Shown: piece by piece, positions 10,616-27,582 of the stretch
How positions within the stretch are numbered: the stretch's first letter is position 1
Layout of the letters: the number at the start of each line of letters is the position of its first letter
Source: Saccharibacillus endophyticus
GTDB taxonomy: Bacteria; Bacillota; Bacilli; Paenibacillales; Paenibacillaceae
Direction of reading: 5' to 3'
Assembly (NCBI RefSeq): GCF_013185185.1
Contig: NZ_JAAZWE010000001.1
Coordinates: forward strand, 186,001 to 250,000
Length of the DNA: 64,000 bases
Notes under the pieces: model-generated
Told to the model about the DNA's origin: nothing
Database searches by the model: none
The model's input: only the letters and a program-made list of their open reading frames with translations
Position numbers and translations under genes: made by a program

Positions 10616-10676
10616 GACGGGAGAGTCGGAGGTTTGCGAGAAGAAGCAGAGGATGGGCGATATGGGATAGAGGTGG

Positions 10677-10705
10677 AAAGCCTGCGCGATAGTGCGGGCT
10701 TTTTG
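10677..10705 (+). terminator. Terminator after the propeller lipoprotein gene
   Basis: AAAGCC(T)GC pairs with GC(G)GGCTTT around an 8-base loop, followed by TTTTT-rich sequence. Confidence 0.65.
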
Positions 10706-10775
10706 CTTTGCGGCGCGGGAATGAAGACGAGAGGAGAGCGGTGAAAAAATGGTGTTCATGCTTGGTGGGTAGGGT

Positions 10776-10781
10776 TATACT
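10776..10781 (+). promoter_or_regulatory. Candidate array promoter (-10 TATACT)
   Basis: TATACT lies in a gene-free stretch and would direct transcription across the attI-like repeats into the first cassette, where integrons place their Pc promoter. The -35 region (around TGTTCA) is poor, so this is tentative. Confidence 0.3.
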
Positions 10782-10807
10782 GTAAGCGAAGGTGAAAGAT
10801 GGGTGAG

Positions 10808-10896
10808 GTTCGTGAATACCACGATCAAAGCGTATATTCGGAAGTTCGTGAATATTGCGAATTGGAAGTATAGGCGAAGTTCGTGAATAAGACGTT
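10808..10896 (+). repeat. attI-like entry site: three direct repeats before the first cassette
   Basis: GTTCGTGAATA occurs at 10808-10818, 10844-10854 and 10879-10889, spaced 36 and 35 bases. It matches the right outer stem of the E1-E18 repeats (CGTGAATA). The last copy is followed four bases later by GTT (10894-10896), the cassette boundary. No left half (AAC with TATTCACG) accompanies these copies, so it is not an ordinary array repeat. Classical attI sites also have extra direct recombinase-binding repeats beside the crossover GTT. The functional claim is inference. Confidence 0.45.
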
Positions 10897-10939
10897 ATCG
10901 GAAATAACATGCAGATGAAAATGAAAGTAGGTATGTTAA

Positions 10940-11416
10940 ATGAATTTTTCTATCATTCAAGTCAATCAAAAACATAAAGAAGTATTAGACAATCTCATGC
11001 AATTCTATATTTATGATTTTTCCGAATTCCTTGCATTTGATGTAGAAGAAAATGGACAGTACAGCCCCTACCCGTTAGATGATTATTTTGAAGAAGGAAA
11101 CCACCAATTTGCTTATGTGATTAAACGAGAAGAGAAGTACATAGGATTTGTCTTAGTTCGTTTAATAGAAGACTTGGAAATTCGGCATTATTCAATTACA
11201 GAATTTTTTATATTAAAGAAGTATAGACGAGAAGGAATGGGAATGGCAGTAGCAACTGATCTATTTAACCGACATAAAGGGCCGTGGGAAGTACATCAAA
11301 TTGAAAGTAATAAAGGAGCACAAATATTTTGGAAAAGAGTGATTAATGAATATACAAAAGGTCAATTTGAAGAGCGGGTTGAGAACGGAAAAACGATACA
11401 AACGTTTATTAGCTGA
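10940..11416 (+). CDS. GNAT-family N-acetyltransferase (cassette C1)
   Basis: 158 residues, predicted to transfer an acetyl group from acetyl-CoA to an unknown small molecule or protein. The acetyl-CoA loop is seen in YRREGMGMAVATDLF (about 94-108), a version of the RxxGxG/A motif, with the preceding beta strand ITEFFILKK. It is the first gene of the array, with GC content clearly below the upstream backbone genes. The unit starts with GTTATCGGA at 10894 and ends with the complementary TCCGATAAC before E1; 16 of 18 bases pair. The substrate is unknown. Confidence 0.82.
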   Translation: MNFSIIQVNQKHKEVLDNLMQFYIYDFSEFLAFDVEENGQYSPYPLDDYFEEGNHQFAYVIKREEKYIGFVLVRLIEDLEIRHYSITEFFILKKYRREGMGMAVATDLFNRHKGPWEVHQIESNKGAQIFWKRVINEYTKGQFEERVENGKTIQTFIS

Positions 11417-11441
11417 TTCAAGAAGACATGTTACATCCGAT

Positions 11442-11529
11442 AACATAATATTCACGCTGCGGACATCCGTCCTTGATCTGGCATTCGCCAGACACTCGAC
11501 ATGCGTCGAGTCGTGAATACAGGAACGTT
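11442..11529 (+). repeat. Array repeat E1 (attC-like, 88 bp)
   Basis: AAC opens and GTT closes the site. The outer stem is TATTCACG/CGTGAATA. The three inner hairpins are GGAC/GTCC, TCTGGC/GCCAGA and ACTCGAC/GTCGAGT, each with a CATNCG-type loop. Confidence 0.85.
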
Positions 11530-11602
11530 AACTGAAACTCCTTAAAGGAGTGCTGATTTTAAAGATTAAAACAAATTTTTGTACTCTGAAGGGAGCATTC
11601 AT

Positions 11603-12364
11603 ATGTTTAGAAGTTTTATTTATGTTAATACTGAAAAAGTTTACGAATACTATAGTTTACTTGATCCTTCGATAAAAGAAAAAGCGATATCAAAAGAAAA
11701 AAGCACTACAAACAAAGCTGAGATTTCGAAATCGCCTATCGGATTTGAACATTCAAAAACAGAAACTATGAAAAGCGAAGTAAGCCAATATTTTTTATTG
11801 GATTACAACAACTTTGAAAGAGCTCTTACTAAATTAAATGGAGAAAATTATTTTGATTTAGTAGATAGTGATAATGACTATGACATTTCGACGATACCTC
11901 AATCTTCAATTGGAAAGATACAAAACAATTTCTGTGTGCCAGAGGAATTTGATTATATAGAATTAACTAATTTGTTCAAGCCCCTTTTAAAACAATCTTT
12001 GAACATTGAGGAATCAGAACAAGAATTATATGATGCATTTTTGGGGGATACTAAGGCTGATATTCCAATCCTTATAAAACATGAAGACAGCACTGTATTT
12101 GGAACTCTTGATACTAGATACTTAAATGAGCCTTATAATCAACTTGAAGAATATACAACAGATGAGGTAACTATTTTATTCAAAGCAGTCTCTCACAATT
12201 CAAGTGATAAAATCAAAATTTTCGATCCTTTTAAGGACTTTATTAAATTCAATCGAGCTATGCGTAGAAGTATGGATATAGAAAGTAGCTACACAAAAGA
12301 ATTTTCGCCGATTATCGTCGATGGGCCAGTAGTGAAAGTAGAAATACTAGCAATATATAAATGA
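11603..12364 (+). CDS. Uncharacterised protein, DUF6414-like (cassette C2)
   Basis: 253 residues from the ATG at 11603, which has GAAGGGAG seven bases before it; the frame extends to a TTG at 11579 without a better site. The N-terminus, FRSFIYVNTEKVYEYYSLLD, resembles the opening of DUF6414 proteins as I recall them. No catalytic motif or membrane segment is visible. A Lys/Ser-rich stretch (about 25-55) may be flexible. It fills one cassette whose ends are GTTAACTGA and TCAGTTAAC. DUF6414 genes often lie in mobile or defence-like regions, but no function is claimed. Confidence 0.7.
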   Translation: MFRSFIYVNTEKVYEYYSLLDPSIKEKAISKEKSTTNKAEISKSPIGFEHSKTETMKSEVSQYFLLDYNNFERALTKLNGENYFDLVDSDNDYDISTIPQSSIGKIQNNFCVPEEFDYIELTNLFKPLLKQSLNIEESEQELYDAFLGDTKADIPILIKHEDSTVFGTLDTRYLNEPYNQLEEYTTDEVTILFKAVSHNSSDKIKIFDPFKDFIKFNRAMRRSMDIESSYTKEFSPIIVDGPVVKVEILAIYK

Positions 12365-12417
12365 ATAGATTACAGATAAAGAATCATTTTATCTAGTAAG
12401 ATCTAGGAGCATCAGTT

Positions 12418-12505
12418 AACATAATATTCACACTGCGGGCATACGCCCTTGGTCTGGCATTTGCCAGACACTCGACATGCGTCGAGTCGTGAATACAGGA
12501 ACGTT
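12418..12505 (+). repeat. Array repeat E2 (attC-like, 88 bp)
   Basis: Same plan as E1. Arm A is GGGC/GCCC and arm B TCTGGC/GCCAGA. The left stem base has one change (TATTCACA). Confidence 0.85.
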
Positions 12506-12559
12506 ATCCGAAATCCTTTGAAGCATTTAAAAAATATCTAAAGACACAGGAGTAAAAAA

Positions 12560-13066
12560 TTGATTGCAAATAAGAGACATATTCGGATAGGTGCAGAGGA
12601 ATGGATGGAAGGTTTAGAAGATGCTCAAGTGGATGTGGTCGTAACATTCCCTAATTCAACAAAATGGATTTCAAATTTCTATACGATTAAATGTATTGAA
12701 TCAATGAGAAAAGATTATTTAATGAATGGCCATTGCTTGAAGGGTGCATATTGGTGCGCTTCCTCGCCAATAATTATTGTAGATCGTATAAGTCGTGACA
12801 GAATTGAACAAGTCATTGACGAACTAATTGAAACAGGAGGATTTAGAGATCTATTTGATTACTTCGGGGCTGTTCAGGAAGAAGATATTATACGACATGA
12901 ATATCCTGAAAACTTTTTTGATCAAAGTTCTAAATTAGATCCTTCATATGTTACCTCTCATGCAAGTCAGTTAGCCCAAATGTTAGATCAATCAAGTGAA
13001 GAGGTTAGAGAAACCGTATTGAAGGGCATATTAGGGTATCTCAAAGAAGCTAAGGACTTCGGATAA
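12560..13066 (+). CDS. Uncharacterised protein (cassette C3)
   Basis: 168 residues starting at TTG 12560 after ACAGGAG. I do not recognise the family. It is acidic, without signal peptide or membrane helix. The second half (DELIETGGFRDLFDYFG and a C-terminal helix with Gln/Ser/Glu) looks like the short regulatory or immunity-type proteins common in cassettes. The TAA stop lies inside the cassette-end motif (GGATAAC), so the gene runs right up to the recombination site with no spare sequence. Cassette ends: GTTATCCGAA and TTCGGATAAC, ten bases fully complementary. Confidence 0.7.
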   Translation: MIANKRHIRIGAEEWMEGLEDAQVDVVVTFPNSTKWISNFYTIKCIESMRKDYLMNGHCLKGAYWCASSPIIIVDRISRDRIEQVIDELIETGGFRDLFDYFGAVQEEDIIRHEYPENFFDQSSKLDPSYVTSHASQLAQMLDQSSEEVRETVLKGILGYLKEAKDFG

Positions 13067-13152
13067 CAATATATTCACGCTGCGGACATTCGTCCTTGGT
13101 CCGGCATACGCCGGACACTCGACATGCGTCGAGTCGTGAATACAGGAACGTT
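13065..13152 (+). repeat. Array repeat E3 (attC-like, 88 bp)
   Basis: AAC at 13065 overlaps the stop codon of the preceding gene. The arms are GGAC/GTCC, TCCGGC/GCCGGA and ACTCGAC/GTCGAGT. Confidence 0.85.
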
Positions 13153-13194
13153 ATCCGAAACCACCAAAAATCATTTAGAACTTAGGAGGAGATT

Positions 13195-14142
13195 ATGACT
13201 GTCATAGAATACACTACAGGTATTTTTAATGATGAATATAAGTCTAAGATCGATGAGTTTTTTGGAGAGAGAATGAAAGAGCTATCTACCAATTTAGAGT
13301 TAAATACATTAGAGAGAATAATAGTATCAGGGAAATTCACAGATGATGTTTTAAAGGTTCAAGAAGAATATCAGATGAGTGAAAGAGGACATACTGATAG
13401 AGATGACGGGATTGCAGTTGCAAAAGTTCTCCATACCAAATTTAAAGGACAACTTAAACAAACAATTGTGATCAATGATTATCTGATTAATGGGCTGTTT
13501 ATTCCTGAAGCTGCACAAATTTCACTTCATCTTTTACATCATGAATTCTGTCATATTCATGAAAATTATTATCAAAATGAAATGTTTACCTCAGAAGCAA
13601 GAAATGGACACGGAATGGATAGGCTTCAGCATACATTAATATGTAACGCGGAGCCAATATGGTCCGAATATTTTGCCGTAAGAAGTTCTTCAACGTCTTT
13701 AGTAATGAACGCCGATACTGATTTGTACTTTCCTTATTTGTTAGATTTGATAGATTTATGTAAAGAAAAAATAGAAGAAAGAATCTCTAAATATAGGTTG
13801 AATGGAAATCTTGATGATTTGTTTGCTTTTTTGCAGGAAGAAACATCTATGTTACTTAAAATAGCTGCCACTACTCAAGGATATATCGATGGTTTGGGCT
13901 TAGCCAAACACGAAATTTCTCATATGATTGAAGAACAATTACAGAAAACATATTTTTATGATATTTGGACTTCTCAGCAGAAAGTATTAAGAGAACTTTT
14001 TGATAAATTCCCTAATTGGAACGATGTATATGAACTAAGTGGGTTAGGTGAGGCGGTCAAAGAATGTTGGAGTGAAATGGGTATGTTTGTAACCTATGTT
14101 CAAGGTAGCGAAGGCATATATATCAATGTACCTTGGAAATAG
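13195..14142 (+). CDS. Zincin-like putative metalloprotease (cassette C4)
   Basis: 315 residues, start at ATG 13195 after CTTAGGAGGAG. The motif HEFCH (116-120, inside HLLHHEFCHIHE) is the HExxH zinc signature. A Glu in IWSEYFAVRSS (about 158) could be the third ligand, as in gluzincin-like families. No signal peptide or membrane helix is seen, so it would act in the cytosol. The rest of the sequence I do not recognise. It stands alone in a cassette (ends GTTATCCGA and TCGGATAAC). Toxin-like proteases are plausible cassette cargo, but neither substrate nor activity can be read here. Confidence 0.72.
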   Translation: MTVIEYTTGIFNDEYKSKIDEFFGERMKELSTNLELNTLERIIVSGKFTDDVLKVQEEYQMSERGHTDRDDGIAVAKVLHTKFKGQLKQTIVINDYLINGLFIPEAAQISLHLLHHEFCHIHENYYQNEMFTSEARNGHGMDRLQHTLICNAEPIWSEYFAVRSSSTSLVMNADTDLYFPYLLDLIDLCKEKIEERISKYRLNGNLDDLFAFLQEETSMLLKIAATTQGYIDGLGLAKHEISHMIEEQLQKTYFYDIWTSQQKVLRELFDKFPNWNDVYELSGLGEAVKECWSEMGMFVTYVQGSEGIYINVPWK

Positions 14143-14181
14143 AAGATTCATTAAACAACGTTAGAAGCTGGGGCATCGGAT

Positions 14182-14269
14182 AACATAATATTCACGCTGC
14201 GGACATCCGTCCTTGGCCCGGCATTCGCCGGACACTCAGCATACGCTGAGTCGTGAATACGGGAACGTT
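14182..14269 (+). repeat. Array repeat E4 (attC-like, 88 bp)
   Basis: Arm C is changed on both sides (ACTCAGC/GCTGAGT against ACTCGAC/GTCGAGT in E1), a compensatory double change. The right linker is CGGGAAC. Confidence 0.85.
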
Positions 14270-14639
14270 ATACGTAATTACGAAGGGCTGATTAAGAGCA
14301 TTTGAATGATGATCTTTCCTTGAACGACGAGCCCTTTGATCGGCTCGAAGAAGGCGAATTGGAAAAGTAAAATGGGGAATCAAAAAACGGATAAGAAATA
14401 GGTAAAAGCAAAAAGTAAATTTGAATGAGAAGAACGATTGGAAGAAGAAGCGGAATCGAAGAGGTAAACGCCTCGGAGGGAAAGCATTTAAAACCCAGTG
14501 AAATTCAAAACGTAAACAGTGGGAAATGACATTTCAAGAACAGAAAACATGGAATAAAGAAATAGAATAAAGTGGAGTAAGACATTAGATATAAGAATAA
14601 TTTTGGGAAGCCAATTCAAAGAAGATCGTAACTTCGTAT
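14270..14639 (+). other. Cassette C5 without an evident gene
   Basis: The unit is bounded by GTTATACGTAATTACGA and TCGTAACTTCGTATAAC. It has no long frame. A short peptide frame, NDEPFDRLEEGELEK followed by a stop, is preserved in its relative C8 with mostly silent changes, and a second stretch VNASEGK is also shared. It looks like a decayed gene, or a functional noncoding unit, copied twice in the array. Confidence 0.6.
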
Positions 14640-14727
14640 AACATAATATTCACGCTGCGGGCATACGCCCTTGGTCTGGCATTCGCCAGACACTCGACAT
14701 ACATCGAGTCGTGAATACAGGAACGTT
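14640..14727 (+). repeat. Array repeat E5 (attC-like, 88 bp)
   Basis: The arms are GGGC/GCCC, TCTGGC/GCCAGA and CTCGAC/ATCGAG (one pair lost). Confidence 0.85.
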
Positions 14728-14758
14728 AGTTGAAATTCATTGAAGGGAATTGATCATA

Positions 14759-15772
14759 ATGACATTTACCATTAATTACTCTAAATTAAAAGACGAGTAT
14801 AAAGATTTTTCTCCTTATTTTGAAACGCATAGACAGTCATTAAACTTATTGTTTGAAACACTTTTGAATCAACAAGATTCAAACGCTATTAATAGTTATT
14901 TATCTCAAGCACCTAATCAAAACATAATGAATGAGATCAAACAAAAACTTGTATATAGTAGTACGCTATGTTTTTTTAGAGCATTTGATTTGTTCTTGGC
15001 TTATATAACTCTAGAGGATAAGAAATTTAAAACTTGGTCAGAGGTCACAGGATACTATAGTAAATTTTATATAATAAAAGCCATCAACTCTTTGCTCCTT
15101 AGAGGCTATGAAGTAATCGATTATGATAAAAGAGGTCAATTAGTAGACAGTAGAAGGGATGGATCTTTTTATTTTGCTTTTGATAATAATGGATTCAACT
15201 TATACAACAGTACTAAAATAGAGTACCAACAACTACAAAAAGACCCACAAACAAATCAAAGATATGGCTCTCATCAATTATGGTGGAGGCTCCTTGAAAC
15301 AATTACAGATATAAAAGGAATTGAAAAATTCAGTAGACTAAATTATTTGCTTGATCAAAATTGGACTAATCCAAAACTACGAAATCAAATTAATTATTCA
15401 CTAGAATATTTAGAAGGATTCCAAGAATTAGATTGGTTTGATGCAAATCTAAAAGGGCATCATAGCTGGAATTCTAAGGATAATAGAGACTTTACAAGTA
15501 TGAAAAATTTCTTTAAAAATACTGATCCTGAAGATATAGATATGGGAGATTATTATACTGATTTAAGAGTTTACTTATGGGAGTCAATTATGTCCTATTT
15601 GGAGATTTACAAAGATGTTCTTGGGACAAATCGTATTTTCAGAATTGAGAATATTAATTATTTGATGCAAGCGCATGAGACTGACAAGGCAGTACCTGAA
15701 GCATCTAAAAACATGAAGAAAATGATAAATGAGTTATTTGGCATAGAAATTGAAGAAGATCCTTTTAGCTAA
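14759..15772 (+). CDS. Uncharacterised protein (cassette C6)
   Basis: 337 residues. ATG 14759 is preferred over the in-frame TTG 14750 because GAAGGG sits 11 bases before the ATG but only two before the TTG. I do not recognise it. It is rich in aromatic residues and predicted mostly helical (CFFRAFDLFLAYITLED, YYSKFYIIKAINSLLL), soluble, with no signal peptide. The cassette ends are among the best in the array: GTTAGTTGA..TTCATTG pairs with CAATGAA..TCAACTAAC at 16 of 18 positions. A defence or stress role would fit the neighbourhood but is not shown. Confidence 0.72.
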   Translation: MTFTINYSKLKDEYKDFSPYFETHRQSLNLLFETLLNQQDSNAINSYLSQAPNQNIMNEIKQKLVYSSTLCFFRAFDLFLAYITLEDKKFKTWSEVTGYYSKFYIIKAINSLLLRGYEVIDYDKRGQLVDSRRDGSFYFAFDNNGFNLYNSTKIEYQQLQKDPQTNQRYGSHQLWWRLLETITDIKGIEKFSRLNYLLDQNWTNPKLRNQINYSLEYLEGFQELDWFDANLKGHHSWNSKDNRDFTSMKNFFKNTDPEDIDMGDYYTDLRVYLWESIMSYLEIYKDVLGTNRIFRIENINYLMQAHETDKAVPEASKNMKKMINELFGIEIEEDPFS

Positions 15773-15798
15773 TACACAGGAGCCAATGAACATCAACT

Positions 15799-15886
15799 AA
15801 CATAATATTCACGCTGCGTACATTCGTCCTTGGTCTGGCATTCGCCAGACACTCGACATGCGTCGAGTCGTGAATATAGGAACGTT
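15799..15886 (+). repeat. Array repeat E6 (attC-like, 88 bp)
   Basis: Arm A is weakened (GTAC/GTCC). Arms B (TCTGGC/GCCAGA) and C (ACTCGAC/GTCGAGT) are intact. The right linker is TAGGAAC. Confidence 0.82.
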
Positions 15887-15922
15887 ATCTGAAACTAGTT
15901 TAAAAACGAGGAGAATGAAGAT

Positions 15923-17008
15923 ATGAGTGAATATTTAACTTCTGAAATAGAATTTGATTTTGAAGAACATAAACAAAAAACTATTTTGGAATATTTACAA
16001 CTGCAACCTCAATATGAAGCTTTTAGTTCGTCATTAAAAAGTATTCTAGAACATTGTCTAGAACAAAGTGGAGTTTATTACCATTCAATAGAGGCACGTG
16101 CAAAATCAATTCAAAGTGTTGGAGAAAAAGCAGCTAGGCCATCTAAAAGTGATCCTAATAGACCGAGGTATACTGAACCACTAAAAGAGATTACTGATTT
16201 AGCAGGAGTAAGAATCATCACATTTTTCACAAGTACTCTTCAACAGGTAGATGAGATAATAAAAAGAGAATTTGTTGTGTTAGAACGAAGCGACAAAAGC
16301 GAATTGCTTGATGAAAAGTTGGGCTACTTGAGTATTCATTATCTTGTAACACTCAATCATAATAGAAATAATTTGCTTGAGTATTCAAGGTTTAATCAGC
16401 TAATAGCTGAGATACAAGTTAGAACTATACTGCAACATGCGTGGGCAGAAATTGAACATGACATCCAATATAAATCGGAAGTCGCAATTACAAAATCAAT
16501 AAGGAGACGTTTTACGGATCTAGCAGGCTTACTAGAAATAGCGGATAGAGAATTTCAATCTATTCAAGAAGAAGACGAGAAATCTCGAAATGAATCTCGT
16601 GCAAATGTTCGAGAAGGTCGATTAGCAGAAGTGGAGATTACTCCGGATGCGTTAAAGGAATATCTAAATAAAAAGTTCGGAATTGATGGTCGAATGACTG
16701 ATTTTTCCTATAGGTATTTTGCTTCACATCTTATTGAAATGGGATTTAGTGATTTCAAACAAATAGATGATTGCATTAATGGTCTTGATTCAATTTCTAT
16801 CAGCAGAACAATTTGGGGTCAGAGACAAGGACAGCTTTCTAGATTCGAAGATGCACTTCTAACTGGAATGGGTGAAAACTTTAAAAGATTGCACCCATAT
16901 GCACAAAGGGAGAACAGAGAAGAGTGGTACTCTTTTTGGGATAGTAGATTTAAAAAACTTGAAGAAGCTGGTATTGAGATTGGTAATTATGATCCTAATG
17001 TTTCTTGA
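15923..17008 (+). CDS. RelA/SpoT-domain nucleotide pyrophosphokinase, possible toxSAS (cassette C7)
   Basis: 361 residues, start ATG 15923 after GAGGAGAATG. The RelA/SpoT synthetase core covers about residues 45-215: DLAGVRI (92-98), GYLSIHY (134-140), EIQVRT (163-168), QHAWAEIEHD (171-180). In the G-loop the usual GYRSLH arginine is Leu, which may change activity or substrate. A C-terminal extension of about 140 residues is unlike the housekeeping YwaC-type gene at 4099. Synthetases of this build include toxic (toxSAS/CapRel) enzymes that modify tRNA or make alarmones during phage attack. No antitoxin gene shares the cassette, so any control would be internal. That is inference. Confidence 0.8.
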   Translation: MSEYLTSEIEFDFEEHKQKTILEYLQLQPQYEAFSSSLKSILEHCLEQSGVYYHSIEARAKSIQSVGEKAARPSKSDPNRPRYTEPLKEITDLAGVRIITFFTSTLQQVDEIIKREFVVLERSDKSELLDEKLGYLSIHYLVTLNHNRNNLLEYSRFNQLIAEIQVRTILQHAWAEIEHDIQYKSEVAITKSIRRRFTDLAGLLEIADREFQSIQEEDEKSRNESRANVREGRLAEVEITPDALKEYLNKKFGIDGRMTDFSYRYFASHLIEMGFSDFKQIDDCINGLDSISISRTIWGQRQGQLSRFEDALLTGMGENFKRLHPYAQRENREEWYSFWDSRFKKLEEAGIEIGNYDPNVS

Positions 17009-17046
17009 GTTATCAAGCATACTCGAAGGCGATACTAGCATCAGAT

Positions 17047-17134
17047 AACATAATATTCACGTTGCGGGCATCCGCCCTGGGTCCGGCATTCGCCGGACAC
17101 CCAGCATACGCTGGGTCGTGAATACAGGAACGTT
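17047..17134 (+). repeat. Array repeat E7 (attC-like, 88 bp)
   Basis: The arms are GGGC/GCCC, TCCGGC/GCCGGA and ACCCAGC/GCTGGGT. Arm C differs from E1 on both sides yet still pairs perfectly. Confidence 0.85.
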
Positions 17135-17498
17135 ATACGTAATTACGAAGGGCTGATTAAGAGCATTTTAGTGACAATCTTTTCTTGAATGACGAGCCCT
17201 TCGATCGGCTCGAAGAAGATGAATTGGAAAAGTAAAAGGTGAAATCAAAAAACAGATAAGAAATGGATAAAAGTAAAAGTGAATTTGGATTTAAGAACGA
17301 TTGAAAGAAGAAGCGGAATCAAAGAGGTAAACGCCTCGGAGGGAAAGCCTTTCAAACCAAGCAAAATTCAAAACGAAAACAGTGGGAAATGACATTTTAA
17401 AAATAGGTAACACCGAATAAATAGAATAGAACTGAGTGAAGCATTAAAGATAAGAACGATTTTATGTAGCAGACTCAAAGAAGATCGTAACTACGTAT
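17135..17498 (+). other. Cassette C8 without an evident gene, relative of C5
   Basis: It aligns with C5 over its whole length with many substitutions and small gaps, including the first ~36 bases and a GAGGTAAACGCCTCGGAGGG block. It preserves the short peptide NDEPFDRLEEDELEK. The ends pair at 16 of 17 positions (GTTATACGTA.TTACGA). No long frame is present. Confidence 0.6.
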
Positions 17499-17586
17499 AA
17501 CATAATATTCACGCTGCGGACATTCGTCCTTGATCCGGCATACGCCGGATACTCGACAGTGGTCGAGCCGTGAATACAGGAACGTT
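17499..17586 (+). repeat. Array repeat E8 (attC-like, 88 bp)
   Basis: Arms A (GGAC/GTCC) and B (TCCGGC/GCCGGA) are intact. Arm C has a different loop (CTCGAC AGTG GTCGAG). Confidence 0.83.
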
Positions 17587-17691
17587 ATACGTAATACCGG
17601 AAAAACATATTTAAAAACTAGACCAGACAAAGAGTTAATCGATTTAACATTTTGCGTTATACTGTGAAGTAAGAATAGGAGGCGATTCCTC

Positions 17692-17865
17692 ATGAGCCTG
17701 GAACAAAAATTGATTAACGACTTTTTATCTTTACCCCAAGAAAAACAAATGGAAGTCATTGATTTCGTAGAATTTCTAAAAACGAAAAATGCATCTCAAA
17801 CAGAAGCTATGATGGACGACATCATTAACGAGAATTTAGAAGCGCTTAAAGAACTCGCCAAATGA
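17692..17865 (+). CDS. Antitoxin of a Doc-type toxin-antitoxin pair (cassette C9)
   Basis: 57 codons, ATG 17692 after AGGAGGCGATTCC. The protein begins SLEQKLINDFLSLPQEKQ and continues with EVIDFVEFLKTK, the pattern of DUF2281/VapB-like small antitoxins; the acidic C-terminal helix (ENLEALKELAK) would wrap the toxin. The stop overlaps the toxin start (ATGA), so the two are co-translated, and such antitoxins usually repress their own promoter. The short length fits the family. It shares one cassette with the toxin. Confidence 0.75.
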   Translation: MSLEQKLINDFLSLPQEKQMEVIDFVEFLKTKNASQTEAMMDDIINENLEALKELAK

Positions 17866-18239
17866 AATCGATTACGATTGACCAATTGCTGGTCTATCAT
17901 CAAAAGATCATGAAAGTAACCGGTGGAGCAGATGGAGTTAGAGATCAAGGATTGCTAGAAAGCGCATTGGGTAAAGCTGAACAGACCTTTGATGGTGAAG
18001 AGTTGTATCCAGGTCTAACAAGGAAAGTTTCTGTCGTGACTTTCTCCTTAATCAAAAACCATGGATTCGTGGATGGAAATAAACGTATTGGAGTAGCCGT
18101 TATGCTACTTTTACTTCGATTAAATGGATATTCTATTCGATATAGCCAAGATGAACTCGTTCAATTAGGATTGGGAACAGCAGAAGGAAAATTAAATGAA
18201 AAAGATATTGAGGAATGGATAATAAGGCATCGAGAATGA
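17862..18239 (+). CDS. doc: Doc/Fic-family toxin (cassette C9)
   Basis: 125 residues, the size of Doc (death-on-curing) toxins, which phosphorylate elongation factor Tu and stop translation. The Fic-type active-site motif HGFVDGNKR (about 67-75) matches the Doc form H-x-F-x-[DN]-[GA]-N-K-R. The N-terminus, ITIDQLLVYHQKIMKVTGG, is typical of Doc. It overlaps its antitoxin by four bases. Toxin-antitoxin pairs are frequent in long integron arrays, where they hinder loss of the array. Cassette ends GTTATACGTA and TACGTCTAAC differ at one position. Confidence 0.88.
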   Translation: MKSITIDQLLVYHQKIMKVTGGADGVRDQGLLESALGKAEQTFDGEELYPGLTRKVSVVTFSLIKNHGFVDGNKRIGVAVMLLLLRLNGYSIRYSQDELVQLGLGTAEGKLNEKDIEEWIIRHRE

Positions 18240-18297
18240 AGCTCGGTGTCTTATTCTATATCTTCTTGAATATTCAAGGAAGACCGGTACTACGTCT

Positions 18298-18385
18298 AAC
18301 ATCATATTCACGCTGCGGACATTCGTCCTTGGTCCGGCATACGCCGGACACCCGACATGCGTCGGTTCGTGAATACAGGAACGTT
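18298..18385 (+). repeat. Array repeat E9 (attC-like, 88 bp)
   Basis: The arms are GGAC/GTCC, TCCGGC/GCCGGA and CCGAC/GTCGG. The left linker is ATCA in place of ATAA. Confidence 0.83.
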
Positions 18386-18426
18386 ATCTGAAACAACCAT
18401 AATAGCTTATATTTTGGAGGTTACTC

Positions 18427-18885
18427 ATGGCAGTATGGGATTACCAAGTCATTTTATATCCTCAAGATAATAAAGCGATTATGACAGAGGAAGGCATTGA
18501 TTTTGTAGGGATTCATGAATTTTCTTTTGATCAGATTGTTGAACAATTAGTATCAACAGGGAAGGTAAAGAAAGGCTCGGTACAAAGGCAATGGAATTCG
18601 TTTGCTGAAGATTGTTACTACATTTATAAGGATAGAACAAGTTTAATAGAAATTGAAATTAATGATGGAGTTAAAGAGGAGCAGGTTAGGACGCTATCGC
18701 TACGAACAAACATATATAAACCTGAGGGAGATATAAAATCACTAATTACACTGGCAAAGATGCTGAGTATTGAATTAGCTCTATCTATATGGGATATGAG
18801 ACTAAAAAGTATAGTGGATAAAGAAGATGAAGAAAGCTTGCAAAGAACAATTCAAAATTATAATTCATACAAACAAAGATCGTAA
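18427..18885 (+). CDS. Uncharacterised protein (cassette C10)
   Basis: 152 residues, ATG 18427 after TTGGAGG. No family recognised. It is a soluble alpha/beta protein with an early hydrophobic strand (YQVILYP), a central IEIEIND strand and a helical C-terminus. Size and composition resemble immunity-type proteins, but no toxin gene is adjacent. Cassette ends GTTATCTGA..CAACCAT pair at 16 of 18 positions with the end before E10. Confidence 0.68.
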   Translation: MAVWDYQVILYPQDNKAIMTEEGIDFVGIHEFSFDQIVEQLVSTGKVKKGSVQRQWNSFAEDCYYIYKDRTSLIEIEINDGVKEEQVRTLSLRTNIYKPEGDIKSLITLAKMLSIELALSIWDMRLKSIVDKEDEESLQRTIQNYNSYKQRS

Positions 18886-18914
18886 GTATTTCAGGAAGCA
18901 TGGTTGAATCAGAT

Positions 18915-18984
18915 AACATAATATTCATGCTGCGGGCATTCGCCAGACACCCGACATACGTCGGGTCATGAATACAGGAACGTT
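18915..18984 (+). repeat. Array repeat E10 (attC-like, shortened to 70 bp)
   Basis: Arms A and B are fused by a deletion. Arm C (ACCCGAC/GTCGGGT) is perfect. The outer stem changed on both sides (TATTCATG/CATGAATA), a compensatory change. Confidence 0.8.
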
Positions 18985-19020
18985 ATCGGACATACCAAAA
19001 AGCATAGAGGAGAAATTAAT

Positions 19021-19326
19021 ATAAATTTCAATATAGAGATTACTGATAAAGATGAGATTGAAACCTTTTATTCCCTACTGGTTTTGGGCTGCATAACAGC
19101 TATACGAGAAGATCTTCTGACTTGGGATCAAGTAGAAGAGCGGTTATTCAGTCCGAACACTTTAACAAAAATAGAAGAACTAAATCTTCACTCCACCCTC
19201 ATCGAAATCACAAATCAAGGAATAATGGAACTGAATTTGCTTCAAAGATTAAATGCAATAGAATATGAAAAATCGATGGATGAAATAGAAAATCTTTTGA
19301 AGACATTTATAAAAGAACAAAAATAA
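19021..19326 (+). CDS. Small uncharacterised protein with probable ATA start (cassette C11)
   Basis: The only strong ribosome site, AGAGGAG (19006-19012), is eight bases before an ATA codon at 19021 and two before an ATT at 19015. No ATG, GTG or TTG occurs before the TTG at 19084. Starting at ATA gives 101 residues (INFNIEITDKDEIETFYSLL as visible N-terminus), a coherent helical acidic protein; starting at TTG would discard the hydrophobic first helix. Either a rare start codon is used or a former ATG mutated to ATA and the gene is failing. The family is not recognised. Confidence 0.5.
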   Translation: MNFNIEITDKDEIETFYSLLVLGCITAIREDLLTWDQVEERLFSPNTLTKIEELNLHSTLIEITNQGIMELNLLQRLNAIEYEKSMDEIENLLKTFIKEQK

Positions 19327-19404
19327 GTGAAGGGGAATGGAAACATTGGATTAAATAAGATCGAGAAAAACTGAATGCAATTCGAGAAGAATGGTACGTC
19401 ACAT

Positions 19405-19477
19405 AACATAATATTCACGCTGCGGGCATTCGCCGGATACCCAGCATACGTTGTTGGATCGTGAATACAGGAACGTT
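19405..19477 (+). repeat. Array repeat E11 (attC-like, 73 bp)
   Basis: Arms A and B are fused as in E10. Arm C is damaged (CCCAGC against GTTGTTGG). The outer stem TATTCACG with CGTGAATA is intact. Confidence 0.78.
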
Positions 19478-19526
19478 ATCGGAAATCATCGCAAAGGATT
19501 AAATTCTATTTTCAAGAAGGGGACAT

Positions 19527-20108
19527 ATGAATAACCTTATAAGCGAATTGTTAGCATCCAATAAATCTAATCGATTAATAATTGGGTTAGATGGATTAAG
19601 CCGATCCGGAAAAACGACATATGTGAAATCATTAATCAACGAGTTGAATCAAACCAAGAATAAAAATTGCGTTTTTCATCTTGATGATCATATAGAGCCG
19701 AGGAGCAAAAGATATAATACAGGAAATGAAGAATGGCGTGAATATTATTATCTTCAATGGAATGTTGAATACTTGAGAGAAGAGTTATTTGAAAAATTAC
19801 ATGAAGAGAATGAGATCAGTATTTTTTACTATGAATTCGAGTTTGATAGGCAATTATTGAAAAGAGTAAAAATTCCTAAACAATGTGTAATAATTATAGA
19901 AGGAGTATTTATACAACGGTCTGAGTGGCGAAATTATCTAGATTATGTAATTTATTTAGATTGCCCAAGAGAAACTCGATTCTTACGTGAAGGAAAGAAT
20001 ACAAGGGAAAATACTCAAAAGTTTAAAGATAGGTATTGGAAAGCAGAGGATTTCTATTTGGAAACAATAAAGCCGCAAGATATAGCCAATATTACAATAA
20101 AGAATTAG
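19527..20108 (+). CDS. Uridine-kinase-like P-loop kinase (cassette C12)
   Basis: 193 residues. The Walker A loop GLDGLSRSGKTT (20-31) is followed by the acceptor-side LDDHIEPR (about 52-59) and a strand VIIIEGVFIQR (about 122-132), the layout of uridine/pantothenate-kinase-like NTPases. VIYLDCPRETRFLRE precedes the lid region. It likely phosphorylates a nucleoside or related metabolite in the cytosol. ATG 19527 follows AAGAAGGGG. The gene is intact; the IS110 element lies downstream in the same cassette, at the cassette's recombination end. Confidence 0.82.
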   Translation: MNNLISELLASNKSNRLIIGLDGLSRSGKTTYVKSLINELNQTKNKNCVFHLDDHIEPRSKRYNTGNEEWREYYYLQWNVEYLREELFEKLHEENEISIFYYEFEFDRQLLKRVKIPKQCVIIIEGVFIQRSEWRNYLDYVIYLDCPRETRFLREGKNTRENTQKFKDRYWKAEDFYLETIKPQDIANITIKN

Positions 20109-20207
20109 AGCAAGTTTGATTGTAGTTCGAAGAAGTCGCTGACATCCTATAAACCAGCTAATCAAAGTCAAGTCTTTCATAAAAAATCGTTGAGCTGTGT
20201 AAAGTGC

Positions 20208-21416
20208 TTAATGAGCTTGAAAGGCCGATCCGGAGTTCCACATGCCAAAAATAATGCGTAAAAGCTTATGTGAAGTCGCCACAATCGCGACTTTTGCCGG
20301 TTTGCCTTCGTCCCGTTTTTGCTGATAAAATTGAAAGAGAATCGAATTTCTCGGACCGTGAACCTTCTTTGAAATGCCGGCTACCGTCGCTTGATAAAGC
20401 GCCGTTCGAAGGTACGAAGAGCCCCGTTTCGAGATTCGATTCTTCTTGGATTTGAAGGTTCCCGATTCGTGAACAGCGGAGTCTAGCCCGGCAAAAGCTG
20501 TCAGCTGTTTCACGGAAGGGAACCTTTTTATATCTCCGATTTCAGCAATAAGCATGGCGGCTGTTAAGAGGCCTACACCTGGAATCGTGCGAAGCAGAGC
20601 ATAGGTTTCAATCGATTCAGCGAGGGATTGCATCGCTTGTAAAAGCTCATCGATGCAATCCTGATACGTTTGTAGAAGGTGGATATAGTGCTTGAGAACT
20701 TCCTTTTGAGCCTCGATTCCATGAAGATCCGGCAGGCTCTGTCTGGCAATTTCAAGTAGCTGCTGGCGCTTGGTTTCGTTCCAAGCTCGACCCCGACGGT
20801 TGCGTAGCAGCAGGTTCAAAACCTCTTCTGGATCTGCGGATAGAAGCTCGGCAGGCGTAGGAAAACGAGAGAGAAGCTCCAAGGAAGTGCGGTTACAGAC
20901 CTTTTGAAACGCTTGATCGTATCCGGGAAAAAGGAGATCCAAAACGGCGCGAAAATGAATCTGCGTCTGGCCGTATAAGGCCGTCCAATGTTGATATTGT
21001 CGGCCGATCACGCGGAGCTGCTGAACGTTCTCATTCAACTGGACGTGAGGCTGAGGATCTTGCAAGTAAAAAACGTGGGCAATCCGTATCGCATCGATGG
21101 GATCGGTTTTGACCTTGCGTACCGCCTTTTGTTTCAGTTGGTGAGTCAATAACGGATTTAGCAGAACGACCAAATAACCTTGGGAAGAAAAGAAGGAAGC
21201 CAGAGGCTTGGAATAGTTCCCCGTGGCTTCAAGAACGACTTTGGGTTCTTGGCCGGAAACGGATTTCAACTCCTTCAGAACAGCTAGAACTTGTTGAAGA
21301 CCTTCTTGGGAATGATAAAATGTAAACGGTTTATACAGACAATTGTGGTAGGAAAGAAAAGCAACAGCTACGCTTTTACCTTTAGCAACGTCAATGCTGA
21401 GAACCGGTTGATTCAT
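20208..21416 (-). CDS. IS110-family transposase (DEDD recombinase)
   Basis: 402 residues from the ATG at 21414-21416, which follows AAAGGAGG by five bases; an upstream in-frame ATG lacks a site. The N-terminal RuvC-like DEDD domain shows SIDVAKGK, LEATGNYS and KTDPIDAIRIA. A helical linker follows, and then the C-terminal Transposase_20 domain with the serine region (TIPGVGLLTAAMLIAEIGDI, TAFAGLDSAVHESG, KRGSSYLRTALYQ). It is full length and apparently intact. IS110 enzymes are guided by a bridge RNA encoded beside the gene. Confidence 0.93.
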   Translation of the reverse strand: MNQPVLSIDVAKGKSVAVAFLSYHNCLYKPFTFYHSQEGLQQVLAVLKELKSVSGQEPKVVLEATGNYSKPLASFFSSQGYLVVLLNPLLTHQLKQKAVRKVKTDPIDAIRIAHVFYLQDPQPHVQLNENVQQLRVIGRQYQHWTALYGQTQIHFRAVLDLLFPGYDQAFQKVCNRTSLELLSRFPTPAELLSADPEEVLNLLLRNRRGRAWNETKRQQLLEIARQSLPDLHGIEAQKEVLKHYIHLLQTYQDCIDELLQAMQSLAESIETYALLRTIPGVGLLTAAMLIAEIGDIKRFPSVKQLTAFAGLDSAVHESGTFKSKKNRISKRGSSYLRTALYQATVAGISKKVHGPRNSILFQFYQQKRDEGKPAKVAIVATSHKLLRIIFGMWNSGSAFQAH

Positions 21417-21459
21417 GAGGACCTCCTTTAATTTCACTGGAGCCGGCACTTTCATTCTC

Positions 21460-21643
21460 CACAGGTTGGCACGGTGATACGGGCTCTAGGCCCAACCAGC
21501 TAAATCGGGGTATGAACAAAAGGCGAGGAGCTATAACACTTTATAAGACGGGATCGGTGTCCCAACAAAACATGCGTTATTTTGCCCAGTGTTTCCTCCA
21601 GTATAAAGAAAAAGTTCATCCCCAAACGAGCTGGGGATGAACT
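21460..21643 (-). ncRNA. Candidate bridge RNA of the IS110 element
   Basis: Read on the minus strand from the element's 5' end. First comes a hairpin with 11-bp arms (21613-21643), then TGTTATAG (21531-21538), identical to the reconstructed target TGTTATAG. Next comes a segment containing ATACC (complement of the left end GGTAT) and TTAGCTGGT (21495-21503, identical to the right end at 20154-20162). Hairpin, target segment, donor segment is the order known for IS110 bridge RNAs such as that of IS621. The 3' limit is a guess, and no left-target guide was found. Confidence 0.5.
21613..21643 (-). terminator. Strong hairpin at the IS110 5' end
   Basis: AGTTCATCCCC (21613-21623) pairs with GGGGATGAACT (21633-21643). 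On the minus strand a TTTTTC run follows. It may block read-through into the transposase gene and may also be the 5' stem-loop of the bridge RNA. Confidence 0.6.
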
Positions 21644-21652
21644 GAGAATACC

Positions 21653-21740
21653 AACATAATATTCACGCTGCGGGCATACGCCTTTGATCCGGCATTCGCT
21701 GGACACCCGACATCCGTCGGGTCGTTAATACAGGAACGTT
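21653..21740 (+). repeat. Array repeat E12 (attC-like, 88 bp)
   Basis: Complete apart from its displaced left flank, which lies on the far side of the IS110 element at 20136-20153. The arms are GGGC/GCCT, TCCGGC/GCTGGA and ACCCGAC/GTCGGGT. The right stem has one change (CGTTAATA). Confidence 0.8.
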
Positions 21741-21814
21741 AAGTGAAATTCCAGTGAGAGTTATAGGCTTATGAAATGATATAATATAACCATCAAAAAA
21801 GAGGAGGGACAAAG

Positions 21815-22057
21815 ATGAAGTGGCAAGAAGTTCAACAGATCTTTCCGAATCAATTTGTGAAATTCGAAGTTCTTCATTCAGAAGAAACCGATCATCAAGA
21901 GATCATTGATGATGTAGCGGTAATTGGTCCGATCAGTGATAAAGAAGCGACTCGTGAATTATTGAATAGCCGAGATAAAACGCTAGTTTATCATACTTCC
22001 AAAGATCAAGTCGTAGTGAAGGTACGGAAAAATATCGGGTTAAGGAGAAGTCTTTAA
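21815..22057 (+). CDS. Small uncharacterised protein, partner of retropepsin-like gene (cassette C13)
   Basis: 80 residues, ATG 21815 after GAGGAGGGAC. The wording KWQEVQQIFPNQFVKFEVL, the central DDVAVIGPI and the late LVYHTSKDQVVV recall a small conserved protein that in Bacillales often precedes a retropepsin-like aspartic protease gene. That is the arrangement here: its TAA is directly followed by the ATG of the protease-like frame (TAAATG). It probably serves as a partner or regulator of that protein. No membrane segment is seen. Confidence 0.72.
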   Translation: MKWQEVQQIFPNQFVKFEVLHSEETDHQEIIDDVAVIGPISDKEATRELLNSRDKTLVYHTSKDQVVVKVRKNIGLRRSL

Positions 22058-22435
22058 ATGAATATCGAATATCGAGACGGACTGTTATTTACGGAAATAA
22101 CAGTCCATTTTAATAAGCAACAGAAAGTCATATCGAACATCGTGATCGATACAGGAGCCAGTCACAGCTTAATTTCATAAGATGAAGTGGACAAGATCGG
22201 GATACAAGTGGACATGGACGATGAAATCACAACCAGTTACAGGATCGGAGGTAAAGAGCATGCCTTTAGTAAGAAAATTGAGGCCATACAAGTAGGGGGT
22301 TTTATTTTAAAAGATGTATACATAGACTTTACTTCATTCAAATATCACAACATTAACGGACTTTTGGGGCTTGATGTACTGACTGAAAGGGAATTTAATA
22401 TTGATCTAAAAGCATTTAAATTACTTCGTTCATAA
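22058..22435 (+). pseudogene. Retropepsin-like aspartic protease interrupted by one stop codon (cassette C13)
   Basis: 126 codons in one frame. The first half has the active-site motif IVIDTGASHSLIS (about 29-41), immediately followed by an in-frame TAA at 22178-22180. The second half, DEVDKIGIQ through the flap-like region to LLGLDVL (about 107-113), continues without shift. One base change (for instance CAA to TAA) explains it. Single-domain bacterial retropepsins of this size exist and act as dimers. Sequencing error or stop read-through are alternatives. Confidence 0.75.
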
Positions 22436-22484
22436 GAGATTAAGAAATTGAGTGAGTGATTCGATGAAGACTGGAACATGACTT

Positions 22485-22572
22485 GACAATATATGCACCC
22501 TGCGGGCATACGCCCTAGGTCTGCCATTCTCCATACACTCGACAGTCGTCGGGTCGTGAATACGGGAACGTT
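22485..22572 (+). repeat. Array repeat E13 (degenerate attC-like, 88 bp)
   Basis: The opening AAC is GAC and the left stem is altered (TATGCACC). Arm B is damaged. Even so, the upstream flank still pairs with the cassette start at 21738 at 14 of 18 positions. Confidence 0.7.
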
Positions 22573-22630
22573 ATAGGAAAGATCGAAAACCAAAAAAATA
22601 GAGTCATTCAAGTTGAATGACTACAAGTTT

Positions 22631-22921
22631 TCATTGTCTATTAAATTTTTCGAACTCGGATTCCGAACGAAAGATTCGTTTATTCAAAGAAGCAACCTCA
22701 GAATCTTTGTCCGTAAAGTTATGATGGATTTTTTCTAAGAGAGCAAAGATATCTTTAGGTTGTCCGTTCTCTAGGCGAACAGTAGATTGATAAATACTAT
22801 GAATTTGAATAGACATTTGTTTTTGGTTCTGATCCAAAAGTATTTGATTTTGATTTAATTGTTGAACATCTTGTCTAAGGGCTTGAAGTTCTTGAAGGAT
22901 CTGATTAAGAGTTTCTTCCAT
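22631..22921 (-). CDS. Coiled-coil protein encoded antisense in cassette C14
   Basis: 96 residues from the ATG at 22919-22921, which follows AAGAAAGGTGGG on the minus strand; a GTG four codons earlier is too close to that site. The first 50 residues are a heptad-rich, Gln/Asn/Leu coiled coil (TLNQILQELQALRQDVQQLN), followed by a charged helix. It is the only cassette gene opposite to the array direction, so it must carry its own promoter. Small coiled-coil proteins like this occur near phage and mobile DNA; function unknown. Confidence 0.65.
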   Translation of the reverse strand: MEETLNQILQELQALRQDVQQLNQNQILLDQNQKQMSIQIHSIYQSTVRLENGQPKDIFALLEKIHHNFTDKDSEVASLNKRIFRSESEFEKFNRQ

Positions 22922-23080
22922 AAACCATCCCACCTTTCTTAATGATGATTATAATACGGATACAGAGATTGAAAATAAAAGAAAATTGAAAGACGAGATA
23001 AGAGAAATTGTGTAGGAACTTAAACCTTATAGAATGATAAGGACGTGTAGGAAATTTCGAAGAAGAACGATCCATCCTAT

Positions 23081-23168
23081 AACATAATATTCATGCTGAG
23101 GGCATTCGCCCTTGGTCCGGAATACGCCAAACACCCGACATACGTCGGGTCGTGAATACAGGAACGTT
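23081..23168 (+). repeat. Array repeat E14 (attC-like, 88 bp)
   Basis: Arms A (GGGC/GCCC) and C (ACCCGAC/GTCGGGT) are intact and arm B is damaged. The left stem reads TATTCATG against CGTGAATA on the right, leaving one wobble pair. Confidence 0.78.
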
Positions 23169-23188
23169 ATACGAAAGGACCGAGGCAA

Positions 23189-23638
23189 GTGATATTGAAT
23201 AAGCCACTTGATCCATACGATTTCTTTATTGAATCTGAAGATAAGAAATCACATATCCTTTTTTCATTTCAGGACATTGAATTAGAGCGATATAAATCCA
23301 TTAACTACTTGGTACATATTAAGGACGATCAGTTTGCTGGACAAGCCGAGATCTGGATTGAGCATGAAGAAATCCATGATTTTATGGAAGGACTTTTAAA
23401 AACTGAAAATAGCGAAGTCAAAACGATTCAGTTAAAAGCCATGAGTGATAAGGAATTTGAAATGAGTTTTATCGATCAAAAAATGGGGCATTACGAAATT
23501 GCCTATTCCATTACAAAGAGAAGATATTCAAGAGACGGATTAATAGAAACGACATTGAAAGGCTCTTTTGGCTACGATAGTGAATTTTTAAACCTACTGA
23601 AAGAGAGTTTGAAGAGAATTAATAGACTGTTGTCTTAA
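23189..23638 (+). CDS. Uncharacterised protein, WapI-immunity-like (cassette C15)
   Basis: 149 residues, GTG 23189 after ACCGAGG. Alternating strands (HILFSFQDIELERYKSINYL, EIWIEHEEIHDFM) and a closing amphipathic helix suggest a small beta-rich protein of the type annotated as WapI-family or other contact-inhibition immunity proteins. The match is by general appearance only. The cassette starts GTTATACGAA.GGACC and its end, before E15, is complementary at 14 of 15 positions. Confidence 0.65.
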   Translation: MILNKPLDPYDFFIESEDKKSHILFSFQDIELERYKSINYLVHIKDDQFAGQAEIWIEHEEIHDFMEGLLKTENSEVKTIQLKAMSDKEFEMSFIDQKMGHYEIAYSITKRRYSRDGLIETTLKGSFGYDSEFLNLLKESLKRINRLLS

Positions 23639-23670
23639 ACATTTGTGAGCAATTCAAGGTCCCTTCGTAT

Positions 23671-23730
23671 AACATAATATTCACGCTGCGGGCATCCGCC
23701 CTTGATGCGGCATTCGCCAAGTCGTGAACA
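23671..23730 (+). repeat. Array repeat E15 (attC-like, truncated on the right)
   Basis: AAC, left stem TATTCACG, arm A and most of arm B are present. After GTCGTGAACA the site breaks off without the GTT. This marks the end of the well-preserved array. Confidence 0.72.
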
Positions 23731-26106: not shown

Positions 26107-26156
26107 GTCATATCGCAGAGTGGATTCCGCAGTCCGAAATGCGCTGCCGCAGTTGA

Positions 26157-26244
26157 AGTATCATATTCATGCTGCGGACATTCGTTCTAAGCCCGGCTTA
26201 CGCCGGACACTCGACATGCGTCCGGTCATGAATACAGGAACGTT
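26157..26244 (+). repeat. Array repeat E16 (degenerate attC-like)
   Basis: The opening AAC is lost. The outer stem TATTCATG/CATGAATA, arm B (CCGGC..GCCGG) and most of arm C remain. It ends in CGTT at 26241-26244, so it still defines the start of the next unit. Confidence 0.65.
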
Positions 26245-26641: not shown

Positions 26642-26692
26642 AACATATATTCATGCGACTGACATACATCGGGTCATGGATACAAGAACGTT
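26642..26692 (+). repeat. Array repeat E17 (minimal attC-like, 51 bp)
   Basis: AAC and GTT are kept and the outer stem is largely paired (TATTCATG/CATGGATA). Arms A and B are missing and arm C is imperfect (GAC..ATC). Confidence 0.65.
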
Positions 26693-27459: not shown

Positions 27460-27510
27460 AAAAGAGAATAGGTTAAATAGTGGATTGGGAGAAGACAGGG
27501 ACAACCTACT

Positions 27511-27582
27511 ACATCATATCCACGCTGCGGGCAGACGCCCTGCATCCGTCATTCTCCGCATACTCATGAATACAGAAACGTC
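27511..27582 (+). repeat. Array repeat E18 (remnant)
   Basis: Recognisable by CACGCTGCGGGCAGACGCCC, a damaged arm B and TCATGAATACAGAAACGTC. The GTT is now GTC and the left AAC is lost. Confidence 0.55.

Follow-up and report, generated by a model that had tools for sequence, protein, structure and literature searches.

A gene-cassette array in Saccharibacillus endophyticus that very likely works like an integron with a tyrosine recombinase lacking the IntI-specific domain

The stretch of DNA analysed here, called the window, spans 64,000 nucleotides of the Saccharibacillus endophyticus genome (positions 186,001 to 250,000 of one contig, C10) and contains an array of gene cassettes between its positions 10,894 and 23,673. 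Fifteen cassettes bounded by GTT and AAC, most with one gene, are joined by repeats of 71-89 nt, and their open reading frames (ORFs) begin close after the cassette start and run mostly in one direction. The right core of the repeats, CGTGAATACAGGAACGTT, occurs 17 times with up to three mismatches, against 0.05 occurrences expected. The array is headed by an attI-like site (10808..10896, + strand) made of three direct repeats of GTTCGTGAATA at 10808, 10844 and 10879, spaced 36 and 35 bp, the last of which leads via AGACGTT into cassette 1, with a putative crossover GTT at 10894-10896. Comparison with related arrays, two of them in the same genome on contigs C11 and C12, suggests that this is a chromosomal gene-cassette platform that very likely works like an integron, using a tyrosine recombinase that is encoded on another contig and lacks the domain specific to integron integrases (IntI).

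The cargo consists mostly of single small genes in the array direction (GNAT-like, DUF6414, RelA/SpoT domain, DUF3969, kinase-like and unknowns), and all cassettes and attC-like sites lie on the + strand. Cassette 1 (10894..11444) carries a GNAT-like acetyltransferase ORF (10940-11416) and is followed by attC-like site 1 (11441..11529), whose predicted fold comprises TAAC, the basal stem ATTCACG/CGTGAAT, three hairpins with ATNC-type loops and an ACGTT end. Then come cassette 2 (11527..12420), with a DUF6414 ORF (11603-12364), and site 2 (12417..12505); cassette 3 (12503..13067; ORF 12560-13066) and site 3 (13064..13152); and cassette 4 (13150..14184; ORF 13195-14142) and site 4 (14181..14269). 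Cassette 6 (14725..15801; ORF 14759-15772; site 6, 15798..15886) precedes cassette 7 (15884..17049), which has a RelA/SpoT-domain ORF (15923-17008) and site 7 (17046..17134). Cassette 9 (17584..18300; site 9, 18297..18385) encodes a Fic/DOC protein (17862-18239) with a DUF2281-like partner (17692-17865) whose match lies below the cut-off, as does that of a further WapI-like protein. Cassettes 10 (18383..18917; ORF 18427-18885) and 11 (18982..19407; DUF3969-like ORF 19084-19326) are followed by shortened sites with about one hairpin fewer, site 10 (18914..18984, 71 nt) and site 11 (19404..19477, 74 nt). Cassette 12 (19475..21655; site 12, 21652..21740) has a kinase-like ORF (19527-20108), and cassette 13 (21738..22487; ORFs 21815-22057 and 22187-22435) a diverged site 13 (22484..22572). 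In cassette 14 (22570..23083; site 14, 23080..23168) the ORF (22631-22933) is on the - strand; cassette 15 (23166..23673; ORF 23189-23638) ends in the last site of the main array (23670..23727), which is truncated and without GTT. Beyond the range given in an earlier note on this DNA, three more degraded sites lie at 26.2-27.6 kb on the + strand (26156-26244; a right end at 26675-26692; 27509-27582). An Rfam scan of 9-26 kb gave three matches, all below the gathering score and none meaningful.

The remaining two cassettes, 5 (14267..14642; site 5, 14639..14727) and 8 (17132..17501; site 8, 17498..17586), are related to each other, have two relatives in S. sacchari, one of them the attI-proximal cassette there, and contain no 80-amino-acid ORF in the array direction; they are possibly regulatory or selfish. 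Four of ten proteins tested matched defence models, candidate or known, at E 0.01: PDC-S33; PDC-S23 and PDC-M59B; PDC-M08B; and, weakly, PtuA. Near the right end of cassette 12 sits an IS110-family element (within the region of about 20150-21650; transposase 20208-21455, - strand), inserted at the outer box of that cassette's site. Its DNA has no match in the S. endophyticus genome other than itself, and its transposase was the only one found among 20 window ORFs scanned. Some IS110/IS1111 relatives target attC; the element here resembles them in its position at the outer box and differs in being a passenger outside the system.

Positions 1-9 and 12-16 of a cassette start are the reverse complement of that cassette's own end, while positions 10-11 mismatch. 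The earlier note had proposed such pairwise co-variation, mismatch included, for about fourteen units, and its example sequences were borne out (exact pairs 11,527/12,420, 14,725/15,801, 15,884/17,049 and 18,383/18,917). In the scoring, the matches lay at positions 4-9 and 12-16. Of the 15 window cassettes, 14 have 9-13 of 15 matches between start and reverse complement of own end, the exception being cassette 12 (19,475-21,655), which has one match and carries the IS110-type insertion. When starts were scored against all ends in the three S. endophyticus arrays (26 cassettes, omitting four starts without a recognisable end), own pairs had 10.7 of 15 matches and other pairs 6.2, position 11 matched in only 8% of own pairs, and none of 100,000 permutations reached the observed sum. 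A foreign end outscored the true one in four window cassettes; in two of these the better end came from a related cassette, in the one starting at 13,150 (9 matches) from an unrelated cassette, and the fourth was the interrupted cassette.

The same pairing was seen elsewhere. A second sample held 107 cassettes from 13 arrays of ten other genomes, seven from Saccharibacillus and three from a second genus. In it the true end was best or tied for 91, and positions 5-7 matched in 88-89% of own pairs against 34-46% of other pairs. Permutations within arrays reached the observed score in 0 of 20,000 trials for five arrays and in 6 to 349 of 20,000 for four more. A third sample comprised 127 cassettes from 14 arrays of other genera, at loci located solely via the recombinase described below; a site was kept if AAC and GTT stood close to the model ends, which left too few in 3 of 17 loci. 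Here the true end was best or tied for 115 cassettes, and pairing extended to position 18 (60% against 26%). Position 11 matches in 1% of these cassettes, and in 95 of the 107 from the ten related genomes it is A on the start and C on the end, so that the mismatch itself is conserved. Over all three samples, most of the 260 cassettes scored show pairing specific to the cassette, and random pairings were never as good in the larger arrays.

The repeats between cassettes are predicted to fold. All 23 full-length sites of S. endophyticus fit one structure: an outer box TAAC/GTTA, an unpaired spacer of unequal sides (ATAA and CAGGAAC), a basal stem ATTCACG/CGTGAAT and three hairpins, mostly with ATNC loops. 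Stem cells were paired in 93.8% of cases against at most 37% in slid versions, and 32 cells were changed on both sides, compared with 12.5 after shuffling and no more than 9 in the slid versions. Sites of homologous cassettes in two species differ by compensatory changes, for example CCGACATTCGTCGG and CCGGCATTCGCCGG; sites of other genera are longer, mostly ~110-200 nt. Prediction and covariation both point to the hairpin with outer box, inner box and unpaired spacer that characterises attC, here with three terminal hairpins instead of one. Classical attC sites are described as bounded by RYYYAAC and GTTRRRY (PMC3053210). Typical cassette starts here are GTTATCC, GTTAACT and GTTATAC, and the consensus is in general matched only at AAC and GTT, just as the earlier note had it.

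A complete site would form on a circular cassette through its complementary start and end, over a more extended pairing than the 7-base boxes of integrons. In agreement with the claim that the two flanks of one repeat match each other less well, the circle-type junction gave a better fold than the junction present in the array for 11 of the 12 window cassettes examined (bottom strand). Over 63 cassettes it was the more stable in 60 on the bottom strand and 58 on the top, with a gain of ~5-8 kcal/mol. The bottom strand also folds somewhat better than the top. Among the best 95 of 150 aligned sites from other genomes, 56 stem cells were A.C on top (G.T on bottom) and 27 G.T on top, the S. endophyticus sites giving 27 and 14. 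IntI is reported to capture the cassette circle through a folded bottom strand (PMC3053210, PMC8946536). The junction folding and the G.T asymmetry would fit circle capture of this kind.

The attI-like site recurs at other loci. Of 21 loci examined, 16 have its last repeat followed by GTT with up to two mismatches, and in 15 of these the end reads ACGTT, whether or not a recombinase gene was adjacent; the five loci without it were the damaged C12 site of S. endophyticus and four second-genus loci ending in AGATGTT. Downstream of the recombinase gene, GTTCGKGAATA-type repeats with ACGTT were present in 9 of 14 loci. For 15 of 19 loci in other genera, a GTTA resembling a cassette start lies 68-306 bp past the recombinase gene; the sequences before it vary in likeness, the closest being GTTCGTAAATAAGACGTTA. 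By sequence likeness, a putative attI site is placed beside the recombinase gene in sister genomes, as in integrons, and more loosely so in other genera. S. endophyticus has three attI-like platforms (in the window; on C11, L039; on C12, L038), two of them intact, and one such recombinase gene. Three arrays with attI-like sites and one recombinase match were likewise seen in S. sacchari. A scan for terminators upstream of the window's attI-like site found none.

Seven places in the S. endophyticus genome match PF00589, none of them inside the window. The candidate for the cognate enzyme is a 384-amino-acid tyrosine recombinase encoded on C12 directly upstream of the C12 array, with a PF00589 match of 144 bits and an open frame over its 384 codons. 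Residues R234, K259, H324, R327, H350 and Y359, which we take to be the catalytic residues of an RKHRH-Y active site, are invariant in 49 homologues. Named relatives occur in Saccharibacillus, Paenibacillus, Cohnella and others, the nearest being that of S. sacchari DSM 19268 (Bacillota, Paenibacillaceae) at 94% identity. Other identities were considered and rejected. A housekeeping XerC or XerD is contradicted by the scores (TIGR02225, 189 of 330 bits; TIGR02224, 187 of 335). A hidden IntI or another cognate recombinase was dismissed as well, the C12 gene being the one among the seven that adjoins sites, and no IntI exceeding the cut-off in 147 genomes. The NCBI label "site-specific tyrosine recombinase/integron integrase" carried by some members was not taken as integron evidence because it is the title of model NF040815.

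By the published definition, the integrase of an integron must have the extra domain that is specific to IntI (Messier and Roy 2001, cited in PMC9668308). The S. endophyticus recombinase lacks it: the integron integrase model TIGR02249 is matched below cut-off and in two pieces (192-213 bits in seven family members, 447-448 in two IntI, cut-off 265), and the protein has ~42 fewer residues than the integron integrase 2a3v between residues 172 and 240 of the latter, the place of the IntI extra domain. The spacing of the conserved boxes is 58-61 amino acids in 115 of 120 homologues (not measurable in the other five), compared with 100-101 in two IntI. By this test the array, although it very likely works like an integron, is not an IntI integron. 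None of 147 related genomes had a TIGR02249 match over cut-off, a count without a positive control because 14 control genomes had none either. In a tree, all 11 IntI rows clustered apart from 13 family rows (100/100), with several long branches flagged; one S. endophyticus recombinase (L004) was left out as unreadable, and three others of this genome served as Xer-like outgroups. The recombinase family and IntI each form a group of their own with good support. The spacing, the tree, the sub-threshold model score and the demand of the definition itself all tell against the view that this is a divergent true integron whose IntI secondarily lost its specific helix. That view, which overlaps in its working with the one favoured here, we regard as possible but unlikely.

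The recombinase has an extra N-terminal part of ~95 residues (L038:6027-6311) with the consensus GRKWxPxxKxWxIPY, modelled as strands and helices at pLDDT ~90 (whole model: pLDDT 83, pTM 0.48). It had no Pfam match, and the fold comparison covered residues 100-369. This part is a candidate for recognising folded DNA.

Recombinase and sites tend to occur together. Over the 147 relatives, S. endophyticus itself counted, with thresholds of E 1e-60 for the recombinase and E 0.01 for sites, the recombinase was found in 46 genomes and sites in 70, of which 58 had two or more matches; 41 of the 46 recombinase-bearing genomes had sites (Fisher p 4e-12). At recombinase loci of other genera, sites lay on the strand of the gene in 17 of 19, the two site-less loci ending 407 and 493 bp past the gene. 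The recombinase gene reads towards the array, while in the usual integron layout the integrase gene reads the opposite way, away from it. Elsewhere in the phylum, sites were matched in 4 of 299 genomes at E 1e-4 under strict filters, namely S. endophyticus, one family member and two single weak matches. The earlier note had called such arrays rare in Firmicutes. This agrees with the published view that complete integrons are extremely rare there, a 2022 survey having reported one complete Firmicutes integron (Limnochorda pilosa) and few clusters of attC sites lacking an integrase (CALINs) in a set where the phylum made up 22% of genomes (PMC9024848), but does not hold for the array type described here, given 70 of 147 relatives. 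Firmicutes are listed in a review among the phyla in which integrons have been seen (PMC8618304). We found no paper describing such arrays in Paenibacillaceae by title or abstract in the open-licence part of PMC, subscription papers and preprints lying outside that search.

One and the same platform holds different cassettes, differently ordered, in two sister species. The earlier note had named two refuting outcomes, random pairings as good as the true ones and related genomes with the units always in one fixed order; neither was seen, the first in the larger arrays. A 27-site array of S. sacchari stands at the same place as the window array: the flank with the attI-like site is 92% identical along 2,152 alignment columns that end at 10,908, and past that point content and order differ. 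Window cassettes 3, 5, 8 and 13 correspond to S. sacchari cassettes 24, 1/14, 14/1 and 12 (81-94% identity; 89% for cassette 3 and 94% for cassette 13). A copy of cassette 9 with 95% identity lies in the C12 array, and 40 of 151 cassettes have a relative in the compared set. In the lone pair with one copy next to attI and the other inside an array, likeness begins at ACGTT. Cassette 7 (1,166 nt) is 98% identical to a cassette of the sister genome G015, and since this is another species the likeness suggests recent exchange. The recombinases of S. endophyticus and G015 are only 80% identical despite this.

Such exchange argues against a fossil array, one that once worked and is inactive in this strain. 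Signs of decay are present: degradation of sites at 22.5 and 26-27.6 kb, truncation of the last site, the IS insertion and the damaged attI-like site near the recombinase gene; against them stand the open recombinase frame, the two intact attI-like sites and a perfect duplicate in S. sacchari, and we consider inactivity distinctly unlikely. Homologous recombination by RecA between near-identical repeats could also shuffle units, the sites being alike and the site cores of homologous cassettes diverging more than the cassettes themselves. It predicts no complementarity between start and end, yet the pairing is specific in most cassettes, and 89-nt repeats with many differences are poor RecA substrates; this explanation appears very unlikely. 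It is barely credible that each cassette is a separate transposon-like element or miniature inverted-repeat transposable element inserted in a repeat family, for although each cassette is framed by inverted repeats of 16-18 positions and one IS110-family insertion is found in the array, a single transposase requires a common end and the arms vary by cassette, the 20 window ORFs scanned include no transposase but the IS110 one, and homologues of the tyrosine recombinase stand with attI-like sites at the head of arrays.

In the integron-like working that we favour, circular cassettes would be inserted at the attI-like site by the recombinase, and excised and reshuffled via sites folded as single strands. 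In the circle, the start and end of one cassette would flank a core of ~80 nt, and core and 16-18-nt arms together would form one long stem capped by three hairpins. The recombinase would bind the CGTGAATA box, which is a duplex in attI and would become one in the attC-like site only upon folding; crossover would take place at the GTT box, with the bottom strand used as in integrons. One recombinase could serve the attI-like platforms of S. endophyticus in trans. If attI is the preferred entry, new cassettes would keep matching ends and the repeat between neighbours would have unmatched flanks.

Several results weigh against this model. All the evidence is comparative. The attI-like site beside the recombinase gene is damaged in S. 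endophyticus, and a consensus scan of 10580-11000 found no promoter-like site upstream of attI in the window. Four of the 13 arrays in the second sample, with 2-5 cassettes each, were not significant alone. One of five covariation measures, that of further pair types, fell within the shuffles (432 of 500 as high), RNAalifold recovered the basal stem alone from all 27 sites (four of them short), and paired arm positions had no strand bias (24 A.C, 32 G.T). Carriage of the downstream site with its cassette gave no overall signal over 28 homologous pairs (p 0.75): the downstream site was more alike than the upstream one in 10 and equal in 1, the perfect S. sacchari duplicate fitting carriage with 100% against 87% upstream. 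Finally, 12 of the 70 site-bearing genomes had a single site match, and 29 had no recombinase at E 1e-60; the sites-only genomes could reflect a CALIN-like state or contig breaks.

The integron-like array proposed in the earlier note stands. To its bounded cassettes with paired ends, the analysis adds an attI-like site, a cognate recombinase encoded on another contig and a spread over many genera. The array resembles a chromosomal integron in its mostly uniform direction, sites predicted to fold with an outer GTT/AAC box, paired ends, attI-like entry and variable content. It differs in having a recombinase without the IntI domain and with the extra N-terminal part, in sites with three hairpins, arms of 16-18 positions and a fixed A.C mismatch that do not follow RYYYAAC/GTTRRRY, and in the three platforms for one recombinase. 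A CALIN likewise has no integrase beside it, but the window array has an attI-like site, and a cognate recombinase is encoded on C12. Integrative elements exploiting Xer, such as the CTX phage of Vibrio, also have an Xer-type recombinase act on a folded single strand; they have no recombinase of their own, no cassette array and no attI platform. The Xer/CTX reaction has been described as the only one with some likeness to cassette recombination (PMC4792948).

We think it likely, if less so than the integron-like working itself, that these arrays represent a second integron lineage in Gram-positives, with an Xer-like recombinase family without the IntI helix, its own attI, its own folded sites and a private 16-18-nt stem with a fixed mismatch. 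In such a lineage the private start-end pairing, and not a shared box, may make a cassette a substrate, and the lineage may be independent of IntI or go back to an ancestor in which IntI had not yet acquired the extra domain. If active, the system would be a natural experiment that tells which parts an integron requires, would mean that single-strand cassette recombination is possible without the IntI helix, and would offer a comparison for the origin of integrons. The arrays also mark a pool of shuffled accessory genes in Saccharibacillus, probably also in Paenibacillus and its relatives, and might serve as a tool for DNA assembly in Gram-positive hosts.

In the C12 array (L038:8844-9272), two sites and the DNA between them are inverted. 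Outside the family, site model R1 was run on 13 loci that carry remote recombinases or classical integrons and matched none of them. Viral contigs gave one remote recombinase relative, and plasmids and phages gave relatives only below 60% identity, in 615 and 55 records. A remote relative of the recombinase (37% identity, N-terminal part included) is found on a Chryseobacterium plasmid (L127:7105-11789), followed by three copies of a strongly foldable 209-nt repeat that are separated by genes; its two units showed no visible pairing of starts and ends. This is possibly a parallel array in Bacteroidota.

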